Below, in pieces: positions 45,721 to 56,087 of a stretch of 64,000 bases of DNA. The notes below the pieces were generated by a model. The model had not been told where the DNA came from. It worked only from the letters and a program-made list of their open reading frames with translations, and did no database searches. The position numbers and the translations under genes were made by a program. How positions within the stretch are numbered: position 1 is the stretch's first letter; each line of letters opens with the position of its first letter. This DNA is from Phytohabitans rumicis (GTDB taxonomy: Bacteria; Actinomycetota; Actinomycetes; Mycobacteriales; Micromonosporaceae), in NCBI RefSeq assembly GCF_011764445.1, contig NZ_BLPG01000001.1, forward strand, positions 4,216,001-4,280,000, in the 5' to 3' direction.

Positions 45721-48332
45721 TCGCGGTGCTTCGCCGGGTGCGCGTGTTCGCCGGCCAGCTCGGGCTGCTCGCCGCGCTCTCGCTCGTCGCCGCGCTGCTG
45801 GTCACCGCCGCGCCGCGGGTGGCCAACGAGCTTTCCGACCAGGCGCTGCGGGAAGACGTCGAGCGGCTGCCGTACAGCGCGCGGGACATCACATTCGAGC
45901 GGCAGCCGGTCGCCCAGTACGCCGAGGGCGAGGTGCGCAACGGCTTGGGCTCGGTCGACCCGTACCGGCACGGGATGCGGGAGCCGCTGCCCGGGCTGGT
46001 GCAGGACGGCTGGTTCACCGCCGCGGTGGCGGGCCGGACGATGGCGCCGACGGGCCCGCGCACCACGTTCGGCCTGCGCGCCCAGAGCGGGCTGCAAGAA
46101 GCCGTCCGGGTGACGGCCGGGCGCTGGCCGCGGAACGAGCCGGCCGCCAGGCCGGTGGAGATCGCGGTCTCGACCGCGGTCGCCAAGCAGATGGAACTGG
46201 CACTCGGCACCACCCTCGCGATCCGGCCGACGAGCCAGGTGCCGGTCCAGGTCCAGGTCGTGGTGACCGGGATCTACGAGCCGGTGGACCCGTCGGCGCA
46301 CCGCTGGGAGGGGATGCGGCTGGCGCTGGAGCCCTTCCCGGGGCTCCCGCCGGACGTGCCGGCGTCCGTGTTGGCCGTGACCGACCCGCAGGGCATCACC
46401 GCCGCCGGGGTCGGGCTCAGCTCGCTGACCTTGTCGTGGCGGTACCGGATCGACGCGCAGCGGCTGGACGCCGGGATGGTCGAGCCGATCGCCACCGCGC
46501 TCGCCGGGACCAAGCGCACCCCGCCCGGCGGCGGACTCGTCATGTCCACGGCGCTGGACGACACGCTGCTCCGGTTCCAGGGGCAGCTGCGCGCGGTCCA
46601 GGCGCTGCTCGCCGTCGTACAGGCCGGCCTGGTGGCCACCCTGCTCGGGCTGATCGCGCTGGCGGCCGCGCTCGCGGTGGAGCGGCGGCGGGAGGAATTC
46701 GCCCTGCTCCGGGCCAGGGGCAGCGCGATCACGGCGATCGCCGGCCGGTCGCTCGCCGAGTCGCTGGTGGTGCTGCCCGCCGCGACGCTCGCCGGCTGGG
46801 CCATCGGCACGTACGCCCCGGGGCGCCCGGCGGACACCGTCTGGCTGGTGGTGACGGCGGGCGCGGCGGCCACCCTCGCCGTACCGGTCCTGGCCGCGGC
46901 GACCCAGCGCCGGCTCGCGTTCACCGCCCGCCGGCAGGACCTCGTACGCCACCGGCCGTCCCGGCGCCGGCTGACCGCCGAGCTGTTCTTCCTCGTGGTC
47001 GCCGGGCTCGGCGCGTACCTGCTGCGGCGGCGCGGGTTGAGCACGGACGCGGGGGTCGACCCGTACCTGGCGTCGGTGCCGGTGCTGCTCGCGGTCGGCG
47101 CGGCGATCGTCGCCCTGCGCCTCTTCCCGTGGCCGTTGCGTCAGGTGAGCCGGCTCGCCTCCCGGGCCCGCGGCGCGGTCGCGTTCCTCGGCCTGGCGCG
47201 CGCCGGCCGGGGCGCCCCGGTCACGATCGGCCCACTCGCGGTGCTGGTCGTCGCGATCGCCACCGGCATCTTCAGCAGCGTCGTGATGACGTCCGTCGCC
47301 GAAGCCCGGGACCGGGCCAGCGACATCGCGGTGCCGGCCGACGCGCGGCTCAGCGGGCCCGGCCTGACATCGGCCACCGCCGACCGGATCGCCGGGCTGC
47401 CCGGCGTCACCGCCGTCGCCCGGTACGCCGACGACCCGGCCACGATGGTCAACTCCGACGCGGGCGGCATCGGGCAGGCGCGGGTGCTCATCGTCGACGT
47501 GGCCGCCCTAGCCCGGGTGGTGGCGGACAGCGGCGTCGACGTACGACTCCCGGCGGCCCTGGTGGACGCGAAGCCCGGCAGCGGCCCGGTGCCGGCGCTC
47601 GTCTCCCCGGCCCTGGCCGCCGAGGTCGGATCCGGCGGCGTGGCGACCATGAACAGCCGCCCGTACGAGTTCTCGGTCGCGGCGGTGGCGGACATCTTCC
47701 CCGGCCTCGGGGCGAGCAGCCTCGGCCGGTTCATCGTGCTGCCGTGGCAGGCGCTGCCCGCGCCCGAGGTCATCGCGCCCAGCGCGCTGCTGATCGCCGG
47801 GGACGGGTTCGACCCGCTCAAGCTGCAGGCCGCCGCGGGTCCGGAGACCACCGTGACCACCTGGGCCGCGCATCGGCAGACCCTGGACCGCACCGGGGCG
47901 AACGAGGTGCTGACCTTCACGTTCACCACCGGCGCGGCGGGCGCCACCGTGCTGGCCCTCCTCGCGGTCGGCTTCGCCGTGCTGGCCGGCGCCCGCGTAC
48001 GCGGCCAGGTGCTCTCCCGGCTGCGCACGCTGGGCCTGTCCGGCCGCCAGGGACGCGGGCTCCTCGTGTACGAGCTGGTGCCGCTCGTCGGCATCGCCGT
48101 GGTCGCCGGCGGGCTGGTGGGCGTGTTCCTGCCCCGCCTCCTCGGGCCGGCGCTCGGCCTGTCCAGCTTCACGAGCGGGGCGGCCGTACGGACGTACCTC
48201 GATCCGATTTTGGTGGGCGCGGTGCTGATGCTGGTGGTCGCGGCCCTGATCGCGGCGATGCTGGTCGAAAATGTGATCAACCGGCGGTTGCGCCTCGGCG
48301 AGGTGCTCCGCGTGGGTGAGGAGGGGCGATGA
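45717..48332 (+). CDS. Second MacB/FtsX-type ABC transporter permease
   Basis: 871 residues. N-terminal helix (LGLLAALSLVAALLVTAAPR), external domain, FtsX-like cores near residues 295-370 (EEFALLRARGSAITAIAGRS) and at the C-terminus (LSRLRTLGLSGRQGRGLLVY). It forms a heterodimer candidate with the preceding permease. ATG 45717 overlaps the upstream stop. The same frame stays open far upstream inside the first permease, but this is GC-rich shadow sequence. Confidence 0.9.
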   Translation: MIAVLRRVRVFAGQLGLLAALSLVAALLVTAAPRVANELSDQALREDVERLPYSARDITFERQPVAQYAEGEVRNGLGSVDPYRHGMREPLPGLVQDGWFTAAVAGRTMAPTGPRTTFGLRAQSGLQEAVRVTAGRWPRNEPAARPVEIAVSTAVAKQMELALGTTLAIRPTSQVPVQVQVVVTGIYEPVDPSAHRWEGMRLALEPFPGLPPDVPASVLAVTDPQGITAAGVGLSSLTLSWRYRIDAQRLDAGMVEPIATALAGTKRTPPGGGLVMSTALDDTLLRFQGQLRAVQALLAVVQAGLVATLLGLIALAAALAVERRREEFALLRARGSAITAIAGRSLAESLVVLPAATLAGWAIGTYAPGRPADTVWLVVTAGAAATLAVPVLAAATQRRLAFTARRQDLVRHRPSRRRLTAELFFLVVAGLGAYLLRRRGLSTDAGVDPYLASVPVLLAVGAAIVALRLFPWPLRQVSRLASRARGAVAFLGLARAGRGAPVTIGPLAVLVVAIATGIFSSVVMTSVAEARDRASDIAVPADARLSGPGLTSATADRIAGLPGVTAVARYADDPATMVNSDAGGIGQARVLIVDVAALARVVADSGVDVRLPAALVDAKPGSGPVPALVSPALAAEVGSGGVATMNSRPYEFSVAAVADIFPGLGASSLGRFIVLPWQALPAPEVIAPSALLIAGDGFDPLKLQAAAGPETTVTTWAAHRQTLDRTGANEVLTFTFTTGAAGATVLALLAVGFAVLAGARVRGQVLSRLRTLGLSGRQGRGLLVYELVPLVGIAVVAGGLVGVFLPRLLGPALGLSSFTSGAAVRTYLDPILVGAVLMLVVAALIAAMLVENVINRRLRLGEVLRVGEEGR

Positions 48333-49282
48333 CCGCGACGACCGACGTGCCGGACCTGGCCGAGCTGGAGCGGCGGGCGGCCGAGCGGGCCGCGGCCCGG
48401 GCCGGCGGCACCGACCGGCTGGGCGGGCACATCGTGTGCGACGGCCTCGTACGGATCTTCAAGACCGACGGGATCGAGGTCGTCGCGCTGCAAGGGCTCG
48501 ACCTGGTGGTGGACCGCGGCGAGCTGCTCGCGATCGTCGGCGCGTCCGGCTCCGGCAAGTCCACCCTGCTCAACATCCTCTCCGGGCTCGACGTGCCGAC
48601 CGCCGGGATCGCCCGGGTGGCCGGCGTCGACCTGCTCGCCATGTCCGCCAAGAGCCGGCTGCGGTACCGCCGGCACACCGTCGGCTTCGTCTGGCAGCAG
48701 ACCGCGCGCAACCTGCTGCCGTACCTGACCGCCCGGGAAAACGTCGAGCTGCCGCTCCGGCTGGCTCGCCAGCGGGTTGATGGCCGCGCGGGCGAGCTGT
48801 TGGAGATGGTCGGCGTCGGGTACTGCGCCGACCGGCGACCCGCCGAGATGAGCGGCGGCGAGCAGCAGCGCTGCGCGGTCGCCGTCGCGGTCGCCAACAA
48901 CCCCGAGGTCCTCTTCGCCGACGAGCCCACCGGCGAACTGGACGAGGCGACCGCGGCCGACGTCTTCGGCGCGCTGCGCACCATCAACGCCGAACTGGGT
49001 GTCACCATCGTCGTCGTCACCCACGACCCGCAGGTCGCGACCCAGGTCCGCCGGACCGTCGCGATCCGCGACGGCCGGACCGCCTCCGAGGTACGCCGCT
49101 CGGCGCGGATCGCCGACGACGGCTCGCACGAGCTGCACACCGAGGAGTACGCGCTGCTGGACCGCGCCGGCCGGATGCAACTGCCCGCGTCCTTCGTCAA
49201 CACGCTGGAGCTGCGCGAACGCGTGAAGCTGAACCTGGAGCCCGACCACATCGAGATCCGCCCCGGGAGTGATGGCAAGTGA
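48329..49282 (+). CDS. ABC transporter ATP-binding protein (MacB/LolD type)
   Basis: 317 residues. Walker A IVGASGSGKSTLLNILSG, signature MSGGEQQRCAVAVAV, Walker B VLFADEPTGELD, H-loop VVVTHDPQVA. The N-terminal 35 residues and the C-terminal extension of about 80 residues (ELHTEEYALLDRAGRMQLPA) are longer than usual. It powers the two FtsX permeases. It overlaps genes on both sides by 4 nt. Confidence 0.92.
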   Translation: MTATTDVPDLAELERRAAERAAARAGGTDRLGGHIVCDGLVRIFKTDGIEVVALQGLDLVVDRGELLAIVGASGSGKSTLLNILSGLDVPTAGIARVAGVDLLAMSAKSRLRYRRHTVGFVWQQTARNLLPYLTARENVELPLRLARQRVDGRAGELLEMVGVGYCADRRPAEMSGGEQQRCAVAVAVANNPEVLFADEPTGELDEATAADVFGALRTINAELGVTIVVVTHDPQVATQVRRTVAIRDGRTASEVRRSARIADDGSHELHTEEYALLDRAGRMQLPASFVNTLELRERVKLNLEPDHIEIRPGSDGK

Positions 49283-50070
49283 ACCTTGTACGGGTCGAAG
49301 GACTCAGCCGGGACTTCGGCAGCGGCGACCGGGTCGTGCACGCCGTACGGGACGTCAACCTCACCGCCGACCGCGGCGAGCTACTGGCCATCCGGGGCCG
49401 CTCCGGCGCGGGCAAGACCACGCTCCTCAACCTGGTCGGCGGCCTCGACCGCCCCACCGCCGGCACGGTGTACGTCGCCGGACACGAAGTCACCGCGGCC
49501 GGCGAGCAGGAGCTACTGTCACTGCGGCGCGACACGATCGGGTTTGTTTTCCAGTCGTTCGGGCTGATCCCGATCCTGTCCGCGGCCGAAAACGTGGGCG
49601 TACCGCTGCGACTGGCCAAGGTGCCCGCCGCGGAACGCGAGGAGCGGGTCGCCATGCTGCTCGAGCTGGTCGGGTTGGGCGCCCACGCGGCCCAGCGCCC
49701 GTACGAGCTCTCCGGCGGGCAGCAACAGCGAGTGGCCGTGGCGCGGGCCCTGGCGAACGACCCTCAGCTGCTCATCGCCGACGAGCCCACCGGCCAACTG
49801 GACTCCGAGACCGGCCGGTCCATCATGGAGCTGCTCCGGGCCCTGGTGAAGGCGCGCGGCATGACCGCCCTGGTAGCCACCCACGACCCCGCCCTGGTCG
49901 AGGTAGCCGACCGCGTCCTCCACCTCCGAGACGGCGCCCTAGCCACCCCACCCCCGCCTGACCCACCCTCCTCCCGCGCCCGCCGCGCCGCCCGCTCTCT
50001 CCTCGTCGCGCTCCCCGCGCGGCGCGCGCCCTCTCTCCTCGTCGATCAAGGGCATATGGTCGTGCTTTGA
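49279..50070 (+). CDS. ABC transporter ATP-binding protein, last gene of the MacB-type operon
   Basis: 263 residues. Walker A IRGRSGAGKTTLLNLVGG, signature LSGGQQQRVAVARAL, Walker B LLIADEPTGQLD, H-loop VATHDPALVEVADR. The conserved domain ends at about residue 225 (RVLHLRDGALA). The remaining Pro/Arg/Ala tail runs into palindromic repeat D, which supplies the last residues (VDQGHMVVL) and the TGA at 50068. The tail probably has no function. Each permease may have its own ATPase in this system. Confidence 0.9.
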   Translation: MNLVRVEGLSRDFGSGDRVVHAVRDVNLTADRGELLAIRGRSGAGKTTLLNLVGGLDRPTAGTVYVAGHEVTAAGEQELLSLRRDTIGFVFQSFGLIPILSAAENVGVPLRLAKVPAAEREERVAMLLELVGLGAHAAQRPYELSGGQQQRVAVARALANDPQLLIADEPTGQLDSETGRSIMELLRALVKARGMTALVATHDPALVEVADRVLHLRDGALATPPPPDPPSSRARRAARSLLVALPARRAPSLLVDQGHMVVL

Positions 50071-53218: not shown

Positions 53219-53434
53219 ATGGGGCGCGGCCGTGCTAAGGCCAAGCAGACGAAGGTGGCCCGGGAGTTGAAATATCACTCTCCGAACACCGACCTCGCCG
53301 CCTTGCAGCGAGAACTCACCGGCAGCGGCAAGTTGGACCACGAATTCGACGACGACTACAAGGACCACGTCGACGACGATGACGAGGACGACGACGCAGA
53401 CGAACCGGACAACTGGGCGCCCCGCGCCCGTTGA
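53219..53434 (+). CDS. DUF3073 small acidic protein
   Basis: 71 residues. A basic head (MGRGRAKAKQTKVARELKYH) is followed by DLAALQRELTGSG and an extremely acidic tail with DDDDEDDDAD. It matches the DUF3073 family that is almost always adjacent to purM in actinobacteria. Function unknown. AGGGGG lies upstream of the ATG. A hairpin terminator follows at 53450. Confidence 0.93.
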   Translation: MGRGRAKAKQTKVARELKYHSPNTDLAALQRELTGSGKLDHEFDDDYKDHVDDDDEDDDADEPDNWAPRAR

Positions 53435-53489: not shown

Positions 53490-53527
53490 GATCAGGGCAT
53501 CCCGCAGCGACGCAGGGTGCCCTGATC
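53490..53527 (-). terminator. Terminator of the radical SAM/RiPP operon
   Basis: GATCAGGGCA plus TCCC pairs with GGGTGCCCTGATC (one bulged base). It lies 18 bp after the stop of the small precursor gene on the minus strand. The arm resembles the family-2 arm TGATCAGGGA. Confidence 0.65.
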
Positions 53528-53545: not shown

Positions 53546-53764
53546 TCAGCGGGGGCGGTTGTTCCAGTTGTAGAACGTCGGGATGTTCTCAAAGTGGTTC
53601 CAGGCGCAGACCGCACCGGAGTCGGTGGCGGTCGCGGCTTCCGCACGCGTACGCCGGGCCGTCTCGGCCTCGCAGAGCAGCGCGGTCAGCCCCGCCCGGG
53701 CCGCGAGGACTCGTTCGGCCACCGGGTCGAGCACACCGTCAGGCCGGCTCGTGGTCTCGGGCAT
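53546..53764 (-). CDS. Putative cyclophane RiPP precursor peptide
   Basis: 72 residues. The ATG at 53764 (GAGGGAG upstream) overlaps the end of the radical SAM gene by 26 nt. The first 50 residues form an Ala/Arg/Glu-rich leader-like helix (LDPVAERVLAARAGLTALLC). The C-terminal 20 residues are quite different: CAW then NHFENIPTFYNWNNRPR, with three aromatic-X-Asn triplets (FEN, FYN, WNN) plus WNH. Such triplets are the cross-link sites in three-residue cyclophane peptides (triceptides), where a radical SAM/SPASM enzyme links the ring carbon to the third residue. It may correspond to the actinobacterial AmcA-like group (recalled name, not searched). Confidence 0.75.
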   Translation of the reverse strand: MPETTSRPDGVLDPVAERVLAARAGLTALLCEAETARRTRAEAATATDSGAVCAWNHFENIPTFYNWNNRPR

Positions 53765-54851
53765 GGTCCAACACTCCCTCTAGTAGACGCATCTTGCTGT
53801 TGCGGCAGTGGTCGGTCTCCGTACCGTCAAAACGCCCGTGCTCGAAGTACCGGTTGGCGGCGTGAGCACCGCCACAAAAACCGAAGTACGGGCAGGTCGC
53901 CCGGCATGCCTCCACGCCGGCGAGAAACTCGGCCACCCACGGCGTGCCGGACATCGCGCCCGTGATGATCTCGGGCAGCGGGGTGGACAGGACGTTTCCG
54001 CTCGTGAAGTCGGCGTATCGCGGGTCGGAAAAGCCGGCCAGTTCGGGCGACAGGAGGACGACCGACCCGTCGTACCCGATGGTGGGGATGGGATCGAGCT
54101 GTCGCGGCAGGACATCGTCCGCGGTGCCGTCGAGCACGGCCGACGCGTAGCGCAACGACCACTCGACCTCGCGCACGTGGATGCTCGGCCGGCGCCGCCA
54201 GGCGCCGACGAGCTCGGACCAGAACGCCGCCACGGCCGCCGGATCGCGCGCGTTCGACCGCGCGTTGACGCCCTCCAGCTCCTCGATGTTGATGCCGAGC
54301 ACGTCGCAGCCCAGGTCGAGGAAGTAGTCGTACAGCTCGGTGGCGAGGCCGGGCTCCGGCCGGCCGACGACGCAGAGCGCGGAGAAGCCGATGCCGTGCC
54401 GGCGCAGCGCTTCCACCCCGCGCATGATCCGGTCGTACGACAGGCCGCCGCCGCGGGTGACCCGCTCGGCGTTGCGCTCCCGCGGCCCGTCGACGCTGAC
54501 GCTCACCCGGATCTCGTGCTCGGCGAAGAATTCGCACCACCGGTCGTCGATCAGGGTCGCGTTGGTCTGCACGTGGTGCTCGACCGCGGGGTCGAACGGC
54601 GCCAGCAGCTTCGCCAGGTGCTCGCGCCCGGCCGCGAGCGGCTCCCCGCCGTGCCAAACGACCGAGAACCGACCGGCGGCGGCCCACGCGTTGACGGGGC
54701 CGGCCACCGCCGCCGCGACCGCCACCGGCATCTTGCGGTCCGTGGAGCGCAAGGGCAGATAGCAGTACGCGCAATCGAGGTTGCACAGCGTCGTGGGCTG
54801 CATGACGACGTACGTCGGAACCGATGCGATGCCCCGCATCCCGGTGAACAC
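53739..54851 (-). CDS. Radical SAM/SPASM peptide maturase
   Basis: 370 residues from GTG 54851, preceded by GGGGAGGAG; longer frames would start inside a palindrome. The [4Fe-4S] motif is Cys23/Cys27/Cys30 in TTLCNLDCAYCYLPL; VVWHGGEPLAAG and the C-terminal SPASM cysteines (ACRATCPYFGFCGGAHAANR, then DHC) follow. The architecture matches cyclophane-forming maturases of the GrrM/AmcB type. The overlapping downstream gene is its likely substrate. No protease, transporter or immunity gene adjoins. It sits directly after purM, in the same direction. Confidence 0.9.
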   Translation of the reverse strand: MFTGMRGIASVPTYVVMQPTTLCNLDCAYCYLPLRSTDRKMPVAVAAAVAGPVNAWAAAGRFSVVWHGGEPLAAGREHLAKLLAPFDPAVEHHVQTNATLIDDRWCEFFAEHEIRVSVSVDGPRERNAERVTRGGGLSYDRIMRGVEALRRHGIGFSALCVVGRPEPGLATELYDYFLDLGCDVLGINIEELEGVNARSNARDPAAVAAFWSELVGAWRRRPSIHVREVEWSLRYASAVLDGTADDVLPRQLDPIPTIGYDGSVVLLSPELAGFSDPRYADFTSGNVLSTPLPEIITGAMSGTPWVAEFLAGVEACRATCPYFGFCGGAHAANRYFEHGRFDGTETDHCRNSKMRLLEGVLDHARDHEPA

Positions 54852-54864
54852 AGGATCTCCTCCC

Positions 54865-54931
54865 CGTCGATCTAGGGTATATCCGCGCGAGCAAAGATTC
54901 ACCTGCGCCGATTTGCCCTAGATCAACGACG
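54865..54931. repeat. Palindrome between purM and the radical SAM gene
   Basis: CGTCGATCTAGGGTAT and ATTTGCCCTAGATCAACGAC form imperfect arms (GATCTAGGG core, 2-nt bulge) with a loop of about 30 nt. It looks like a diverged relative of the GATCAAGGG repeats. It lies 8 bp after the purM stop and just before the ribosome-binding site of the radical SAM gene, so it may end the purM transcript or set read-through. Confidence 0.6.
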
Positions 54932-54938
54932 AGGTCGG

Positions 54939-56087
54939 TCAGCCGCGCGTGTGCTGGCCGATCATCTGCACCATGCCGGTGCCCTCGATGACCTCACCGG
55001 CCTGCCACGCCGCCAGGCCGCGACCGGCGAGGAACGCCAGCGTGCGGTCGGCGTCCGCGGCGGACACGATCGCGAACATGCCCACGCCCATGTTGAACGT
55101 CGACTCCATCTCCGCGTCGTCGATGCGGCCCTTGCCCTGGATCAGGTCGAAGATCGGCTGAGGCTTCCAGGTCGAGCGGTTGACGACGGCGTCGACGTGC
55201 TCGGGCAGGATCCGGACCAGGTTGCCCGGGATGCCGCCGCCGGTCACGTGGGCCAGCGCCCGGACCTCGCACTCCTCGATCAGCTTGAGGCAGTCGCGCG
55301 CGTAGATCTTCGTCGGCGTGAGCAGCTCCTCGCCCAGCGTCCGCTGCCGGCCGAAGTCGTCCACCACCGTGTCCAGCCGCATCCGGCCCGCGCCCAGCAG
55401 CACGTGCCGGACCAGCGAGAAGCCGTTCGAGTGCAGACCGGACGAGCCCATCGCGATCACGACGTCGCCGACCTCGACCCGCTCGCGACCCAGGATGTCG
55501 CTCTCCTCGACCACGCCCACGCCGGTGGCCGACACGTCGTACTCGTCGGGGCGCAGCACGCCGGGGTGCTCTGCCGTCTCGCCGCCCAGCAGGGCGCAGC
55601 CGGCGTACCGGCAGCCGTCCGCGATGCCGGCGCCGATCTCGGCCACCTTGTCGGGCACGACCTCGCCGCAGGCGATGTAGTCGAGCAGGAACAGCGGCTC
55701 GGCCCCGCACGCCACCAGGTCGTCGACGACCATCGCCACCAGGTCGATTCCGACCGTGTCATGGATGTCGAGCTGCTGCGCGATGACCAGCTTAGTGCCC
55801 ACCCCGTCGGTCGACGAGGCGAGGATCGGGTTCTTGTACTTCTTGACGTCAAGCTTGAAGAGCCCGGCAAAGCCGCCCAGGTCGCCCATGACCTCTGGCC
55901 GCAGCGTCCGATGCACCTTGGACTTCAGCAGCTCCACCGCCCGCTCTCCGGCGTGGATGGACACCCCGGCGTCCGCGTACGTCACGGTGCGCTTGCGGGA
56001 CCGGCTCGATCCTGCGCTCCATGGCTGGCGGTTGTTTCCGGCTCCGTTGGTGCCCGCGCTGCTGCCGCGCTCGGTCACGTGCGTCAC
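54939..56087 (-). CDS. purM: Phosphoribosylformylglycinamidine cyclo-ligase
   Basis: 382 residues. It makes aminoimidazole ribotide (AIR) from FGAM with ATP, a step of purine synthesis. Signatures: VTYADAGVSIHAGERAVELL, ILASSTDGVGTKLVIAQQLD, LLGGETAEHPGVL and HVTGGGIPGNLVRILPEHVD. The first 32 residues are a poorly conserved Ser/Arg extension, so a start closer to VTYADAGV is possible. It follows purF with a 69-bp gap on the same strand. Confidence 0.95.
   Translation of the reverse strand: MTHVTERGSSAGTNGAGNNRQPWSAGSSRSRKRTVTYADAGVSIHAGERAVELLKSKVHRTLRPEVMGDLGGFAGLFKLDVKKYKNPILASSTDGVGTKLVIAQQLDIHDTVGIDLVAMVVDDLVACGAEPLFLLDYIACGEVVPDKVAEIGAGIADGCRYAGCALLGGETAEHPGVLRPDEYDVSATGVGVVEESDILGRERVEVGDVVIAMGSSGLHSNGFSLVRHVLLGAGRMRLDTVVDDFGRQRTLGEELLTPTKIYARDCLKLIEECEVRALAHVTGGGIPGNLVRILPEHVDAVVNRSTWKPQPIFDLIQGKGRIDDAEMESTFNMGVGMFAIVSAADADRTLAFLAGRGLAAWQAGEVIEGTGMVQMIGQHTRG

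Follow-up and report, generated by a model that had tools for sequence, protein, structure and literature searches.

Known cyclophane-forming systems and the Amc family

OscB and XncB are known to connect C7 of Trp or C4 of Phe with the C-beta of Asn, and the links described in the OscB product are Trp-Asn/Asp and Phe-Asn (PMC11002830). Triceptide enzymes work by hydrogen abstraction followed by addition to the ring; according to the same 2025 paper, the biological activities of triceptides are still to be elucidated (PMC12257519). Related radical SAM enzymes also make the antibiotics darobactin and dynobactin. The main text of a survey covering 779 Micromonosporaceae gene clusters contains neither 'radical' nor 'ranthipeptide' (PMC10868606); as far as that main text goes, two-gene loci of the amc kind may be missed by usual mining.

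The AmcB/AmcA_3a cassette itself is already known, since its enzyme is covered by the NCBIfam equivalog NF041718, named 'cyclophane-forming radical SAM peptide maturase', and its precursor by NF041722, named 'multiple cyclophane-containing RiPP AmcA'. Therefore the suggestion in the preliminary description of this DNA that the precursor might be new does not hold. The Amc family was reportedly defined by Phan and Morinaka in 2022. The near-invariance of the peptide core, its fixed chromosomal site and its single-gain pattern are measured here; no report of the fixed site or of core invariance was found in the literature searched, and the likely defining paper lies outside the coverage of that search.

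The maturase AmcB

The window is the whole stretch of 64,000 nt from Phytohabitans rumicis that was analysed, and all coordinates refer to it. The enzyme gene has the following features.

53739..54851, minus strand: amcB, radical SAM peptide maturase, 370 aa, GTG start (NF041718; PF04055; start from the match starts of relatives)
54762..54785, minus strand: CNLDCAYC, the CxxxCxxC motif (Cys23, 27 and 30, invariant in 26/26 aligned AmcB)
53805..53906, minus strand: four C-terminal Cys (316, 320, 326 and 349), candidate auxiliary-cluster ligands (invariant in 26/26)

Profile search placed AmcB well above the NF041718 cut-off of 425, with 513.3 bits (E 3.3e-154). Among the GrrM, XyeB, FxsB and AmcB families, named earlier for a profile check, only AmcB exceeded its cut-off. 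The next-best enzyme model was GrrM/OscB (TIGR04261, 228.5 bits, cut-off 310), and scores of 102.6 for the anaerobic sulfatase maturase (TIGR03942, cut-off 349), 88.5 for FxsB (TIGR04269, cut-off 370) and 52.3 for XyeB (TIGR04496, cut-off 450) were obtained, together with weak similarity to the DynA, DarE and DarW models. Assignments of AmcB to the sulfatase maturases, GrrM, XyeB, FxsB or the Dar/Dyn enzymes were rejected because these scores lie under the cut-offs. Among named genomes, its closest relatives come from three Phytohabitans (85-88%) and one strain carrying the label Micromonospora sp. (86%), followed by Plantactinospora, Actinoplanes, Asanoa, Micromonospora and others, all among the best 80 of 444 matches, which places the window in Micromonosporaceae. 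Most tblastn matches in this set begin at query residues 18-21, which is at the GTG or just after it, so a longer frame of 387 aa starting at 54902 is unlikely to be the one used.

The CxxxCxxC motif of the radical SAM family binds the [4Fe-4S] cluster that in turn binds SAM. This motif and the four C-terminal Cys, both pointed out in the preliminary description, are real and fixed, for Cys 23, 27, 30, 106, 316, 320, 326 and 349 show no variation in 26/26 aligned AmcB. The consensus of the SPASM domain has seven Cys. Above its cut-offs Pfam recognised only Radical_SAM in AmcB, with no SPASM model at E <= 0.1, and the C-terminal half of the AlphaFold model (mean pLDDT 67.6, mediocre) is too weak for placing the four Cys, which are considered candidate ligands of an auxiliary cluster. 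The nearest solved relatives, by both sequence and fold, were anSMEcpe, and the fold comparison also returned ChlB with leader (9gm3).

The precursor AmcA and its proposed coupling to the enzyme

53546..53764, minus strand: amcA, precursor peptide of 72 aa, 72 codons (NF041722 AmcA_3a)
53739..53764, minus strand: overlap of the amcB end and the amcA start, 26 nt (direct observation)
53615..53764, minus strand: AmcA leader, residues 1-50, variable (43.8% mean pairwise identity in 23 genera, over at most 45 pre-core residues)
53549..53614, minus strand: AmcA core, residues 51-72, AVCAWNHFENIPTFYNWNNRPR (identical in 80/80 loci; 20/22 positions invariant in 100 genomes)
53594..53602, minus strand: WNH, possible but doubtful fourth ring (invariant in type 3a, 100/100; missing from 3b and the g24 type)
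53585..53593, minus strand: FEN triplet, predicted cyclophane 1, Phe ring to Asn C-beta (OscB/XncB analogy)
53567..53575, minus strand: FYN triplet, predicted cyclophane 2 (position conserved across types)
53558..53566, minus strand: WNN triplet, predicted cyclophane 3, Trp ring to Asn C-beta (position conserved across types)

AmcA matches AmcA_3a far beyond chance (111.9 bits, E 1.6e-32, cut-off 65) and reaches 36.8 bits with the sibling model AmcA_3b (NF041723, cut-off 65). With both equivalog cut-offs exceeded, the cyclophane-type RiPP cassette proposed earlier is borne out. All four triplets that had been read at the end of AmcA are present; only FEN, FYN and WNN are aromatic-X-Asn, and WNH is not.

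The overlap of exactly 26 nt between the maturase gene and the 72-codon precursor gene, both on the minus strand, was correctly observed. With starts picked by a script, an in-frame ATG or GTG of amcA precedes the amcB stop in 81/81 sequences, the commonest overlap being 32 nt (42/81), and a loosely defined Shine-Dalgarno string precedes amcA in 50/81, a raw count without a shuffled control. In one draft genome (G033, genus g33), amcB and amcA form one open frame (L092:5546-6793, plus strand) that ends CESTGTYYNWNNRSR, with a shortened AmcA core closing on YYN and WNN; in G059, the sole other g33 genome examined, the sequence breaks inside amcB. This natural fusion supports the view that the peptide would be the partner of the enzyme.

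Three further features flank the two genes.

54852..54938, minus strand: purM-amcB gap, probable own promoter of amcB (upstream motif counts)
53490..53527: second inverted repeat between DUF3073 and amcA, 16-nt arms, 88% complementary, without a terminator score
53443..53482: inverted repeat between the convergent DUF3073 and amcA, 17-nt arms, 82% complementary, without a terminator score

Among the best 80 of 444 loci, and counted without a shuffled control, the 170 nt upstream of amcB contain CCTAGCCT in 71/80, and TT[CG]AC precedes a TAGCCT-like box in 59/80; the variant of the box in the window is CCCTAGATC. These frequencies suggest that the gap probably holds a promoter of amcB's own. 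No consensus promoter or intrinsic terminator was scored between 53300 and 55100.

A nearly invariant core beneath a drifting leader

A nearly invariant core and a fixed chromosomal site were missed in the preliminary description. The 80 loci used here are the best 80 of 444 matches to the AmcB of the window and are therefore biased towards type 3a. Within them amcA is present in 80/80, so that homologues lacking the small gene were not seen, and the 22-residue core shows no difference in 80/80. Across 100 AmcA_3a genomes, variation is confined to two of the 22 core positions, namely position 15 (Tyr in 85, Phe in 15) and position 22 (Arg in 95, Pro in 4, Ser in 1).

Mean pairwise identities were calculated with one locus per genus for 23 AmcA_3a genera (21 loci for PurM and PurF). 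The core reached 98.3% and the leader 43.8%, confirming the expectation that the leader drifts while the C-terminal triplets are kept. AmcB stood at 74.9%, PurM at 82.2%, PurF at 84.5%, DUF3073 at 72.0%, the neighbouring dehydrogenase at 81.2%, orf279 at 76.7% and BldC at 98.5%; the AmcA core is thus conserved to the same degree as the neighbouring regulator BldC.

When all pairs among the best 80 of 444 loci were compared, pS of the core was 0.286 and pN 0.0002 (pN/pS 0.0007), with pN/pS 0.27 for AmcB; the value of 0.76 for the last 25 leader codons is an overestimate, obtained from ungapped tails that were not aligned. The single core peptide is encoded by 58 distinct DNA versions in these 80 loci. 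Given these versions and the core pN/pS, selection acts on the core peptide. The codons of core Asn10, Asn16 and Asn18 are AAC in 100/100 AmcA_3a genomes, which could follow from high G+C usage.

A fixed chromosomal site and a pattern of single gain

54939..56087, minus strand: purM, upstream neighbour on the same strand (TIGR00878, 436 bits, cut-off 236; conserved neighbour)
53219..53434, plus strand: DUF3073 gene, convergent neighbour marking the site (PF11273 on the frame from 53156; adjoins amcA in 80/80 of the best 80 of 444 loci)

In the window the cassette is surrounded by purM, purF, DUF3073, an amino-acid-dehydrogenase-like gene (presumably Vdh), orf279 and bldC. PurM, PurF and BldC exceed their NCBIfam cut-offs, the dehydrogenase matches ScyB under the cut-off, and orf279 has no match in NCBIfam or Pfam profile searches. 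The order purF, purM, amcB, amcA, DUF3073, dehydrogenase recurs in 80/80 loci (best 80 of 444), with orf279 in 79 and bldC in 78. A precursor downstream of its enzyme, earlier regarded as an unusual layout, is hence the rule.

The same holds for a set of 32 loci (L064-L095), in which amcB lies by purM/purF with amcA or a candidate frame downstream, and bldC, orf279, dehydrogenase and DUF3073 lie on the far side. This far-side block is inverted in L093-L095, purF and purM are inverted and more distant from amcB in L071-L072, a dehydrogenase match is missing from the fusion locus L092, and L074, L086, L088 and L089 are cut by short contigs.

Besides, 17 purM-region stretches were taken from genomes without a full amcB. 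DUF3073 adjoins purM with no AmcB match in five of them (L212, L216, L218, L219 and L220). Other genes lie between purM and DUF3073 in L206-L208, about 5 kb separates the two in L214, no DUF3073 gene turned up in the stretch examined of L205, L209, L210, L211, L213, L215 and L217, and the amcB start is at the contig end in L204. In one of these stretches (L206:6396-7645, plus strand; G012, genus g13) a graspetide-type cassette replaces amc at the purM-DUF3073 site, consisting of a TIGR04186 precursor (28 bits, cut-off 25) followed by a TIGR04187 ATP-grasp maturase (413 bits, cut-off 350). This site may be open to repeated entry of RiPP cassettes.

A PurM tree was drawn from 45 rows, namely 29 with amcB, 11 from the family lacking it and 5 outgroups. 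The 29 amcB rows are grouped in a single clade (100/99), and both the 11 lacking rows and the 5 outgroups fall outside it. For the genera sampled, this topology is consistent with a single gain without loss, the tree being that of a neighbour gene with several weak inner forks. Genera with AmcA_3a and AmcA_3b are intermixed in it, so the precursor type at the same site seems to have been changed or exchanged more than once.

Distribution across genomes

AmcB exceeds the NF041718 cut-off in 115/150 Micromonosporaceae genomes, a figure that is not a count of the purM-site locus alone since the model also catches AmcB paralogues elsewhere. AmcA_3a exceeds its cut-off in 100/150. A pattern search of the loci revealed an Amc-type core in 115/150 genomes, comprising 100 of type 3a, 11 of type 3b, three of the g24 type and one fusion. 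Nine genera without AmcB over the cut-off (g5, g8, g12, g13, g14, g15, g27, g35 and g40) account for 31/150 genomes, and with these set aside a precursor core is found in 115/119. The four exceptions are drafts of 630-830 contigs: G041 has a paralogue only, G059 and G094 have a contig end inside amcB, and G089 has nothing. Apart from these fragmented drafts, no loss of amc was seen among the 119 genomes.

The AmcA_3b model matched 296/354 Micromonosporaceae genomes at E <= 0.001, with many 3a peptides caught as well, and exceeded its cut-off in 11. In the wider order AmcA_3a was over the cut-off in 68/397 genomes, all 68 of them Micromonosporaceae, and in the phylum AmcB was over the cut-off in 2/296, both again Micromonosporaceae. 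One genome (G926) carries two AmcA matches 149 kb apart (C1:209686 and C1:359020), and the other genomes have one among the matches listed. In addition, the genus g24 (G023, G054 and G074; L091 is the first) has an AmcA with WTD, FTE and FSN triplets; the one peptide scanned, from L091, is under both the AmcA_3a and the AmcA_3b cut-offs.

Predicted product and number of rings

The main reading, to which a probability of roughly 0.8 is given, is that the locus is an AmcBA triceptide cassette whose product would carry three cyclophanes and, nearly invariant as it is, would be a conserved physiological molecule. AmcB would recognise the drifting AmcA leader and, with SAM and its [4Fe-4S] cluster, generate a 5'-deoxyadenosyl radical. 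In each triplet this radical would abstract a hydrogen from C-beta of the third residue, and the C-beta radical so formed would then add to the aromatic ring two residues earlier, closing a cyclophane. By analogy with OscB and XncB, three small cyclophanes at FEN, FYN and WNN are expected, with a loss of 2 Da each. The gene overlap would couple the synthesis of precursor and enzyme, and release of the product, if any, may proceed via general proteases.

The number of rings is predicted from the variation among precursor types. The FEN position is occupied by FEN, FED, FSD or WTD, the FYN position by FYN, FFN, FYQ, FYE, FWE or FTE (YYN in the amcB-amcA fusion), and the WNN position by WNN, FTN or FSN. 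All types thus keep, at three positions, an aromatic residue followed two residues later by N, D, Q or E, and WNH is not among these positions, for which reason three rings are the best prediction for the AmcA_3a product. Across types Asn, Asp, Gln and Glu all occur as the third residue, which makes the Asn rule a loose one. Non-conserved triplets, an outcome that would have spoken against the preliminary description, were not observed as such, but AmcA_3b (FED or FSD; FYQ, FYE or FWE; FTN or FSN) has Asp, Gln or Glu as third residue at two of three.

The preliminary description had allowed up to four rings, and the same cassette could cross-link WNH too, from Trp to His or Asn. WNH is as invariant in the 100/100 AmcA_3a cores as the other three triplets. 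Nevertheless, its third residue is His, AmcA_3b has WRP, WRA or PRP at this place and the g24 type has no equivalent, whereas the other three positions are kept; a fourth ring is possible but unlikely.

Role of the product

From its conservation, a physiological role of the three-ring product is favoured. The nearly invariant peptide, encoded at one chromosomal site, may act as a signal, a regulator or a cofactor-like molecule. In its fullest form, the proposal describes a housekeeping triceptide, that is, a fixed, multiply cross-linked peptide gained once at the purM-DUF3073 site by an ancestor of most Micromonosporaceae and acting in such a capacity within the producer or among kin; this form is put forward tentatively and falls somewhat short of probable. 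A single site, a single gain with no loss seen beyond the fragmented drafts, an invariant core and the lack of any known protease or immunity gene beside it are not what the evolution of a diversifying antibiotic would give.

A secreted antibiotic or bacteriocin-like triceptide directed against other bacteria, exported by an ABC pair or by general machinery, has precedents in darobactin and dynobactin, and AmcB is weakly similar to the DynA, DarE and DarW models. As had been described, profile searches of the window place no transporter, protease or immunity gene directly next to amcBA; that statement has to be widened by two ABC-transporter ATPase genes beyond bldC (48329-49282 and 49279-50070), 3.5 kb from amcA, whose best models (LolD, MacB, DevA and also DarD, all under cut-off) are of the exporter type. 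Such a pair lies beside bldC in 7/32 loci (L064, L069, L071, L074, where it is about 3 kb off, L075, L082 and L086), which adds slight weight to an antibiotic; it was not found in the available stretch, short in some cases, of the other 25/32 and so does not travel with amc, making it a candidate exporter in some genera and not a constant partner. Nor does the site have a known protease or immunity gene. Moreover, the AmcA core is not diversifying, whereas the cores at five paralogue loci (L096-L100) all differ between genomes. Invariance gives nothing direct on role, and an antibiotic with an unchanging target could be invariant too, yet on this evidence an antibiotic is improbable.

Constraint on DNA or RNA rather than on the peptide, to which the fixed AAC codons could be attributed, is very improbable: high G+C usage could account for these codons, and there are 58 DNA versions among the best 80 of 444 loci (pS 0.286). 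An RNA element at the locus was rejected, with no Rfam match between 50000 and 58500. Finally, a sulfatase maturase or other non-RiPP SPASM enzyme with an incidental small gene can hardly be credited, even with anSMEcpe as the nearest solved relative in sequence and fold, because the sulfatase maturase score stays far under its cut-off while that of AmcB exceeds its own, and the small gene is co-conserved with the enzyme and once fused to it.

A nearly invariant triceptide in 115/119 genomes of a culturable clade would make the question of triceptide bioactivity addressable by gene removal in a laboratory strain, and nearly the same product is expected across most of the clade.

Comparison with known systems

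The window genes exceed both the AmcB and the AmcA_3a cut-offs (NF041718 and NF041722), their core and gene order are those of Micromonosporaceae relatives, and no structural difference from this known system was found in the cassette. AmcA_3b resembles it in the site, the enzyme type, three triplets at matching places and an RPR-like tail; unlike the AmcA of the window, its core is FEDAFPTFYQFTNRPR-like and lacks WNH. The AmcB-paralogue loci L096-L100, compared here with AmcA_1 (NF041721), share an enzyme over the cut-off of the same model and a precursor directly downstream, and the peptides from L096 and L099, the two of five scanned, scored 64.6 and 66.9 bits with AmcA_1 (cut-off 40). In contrast, these AmcB paralogues are 41-42% identical to the enzyme of the window, lie at other sites and are accompanied by cores of the FDN/WDN type that differ between genomes. 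GrrM/OscB (TIGR04261) is the next-best model for AmcB, yet under its cut-off.

The precursors of PQQ and mycofactocin are conserved RiPP precursors of core physiology. If the physiological reading is true, the AmcA product would be a further RiPP of core physiology, akin in conservation to these two precursors and unlike antibiotics.
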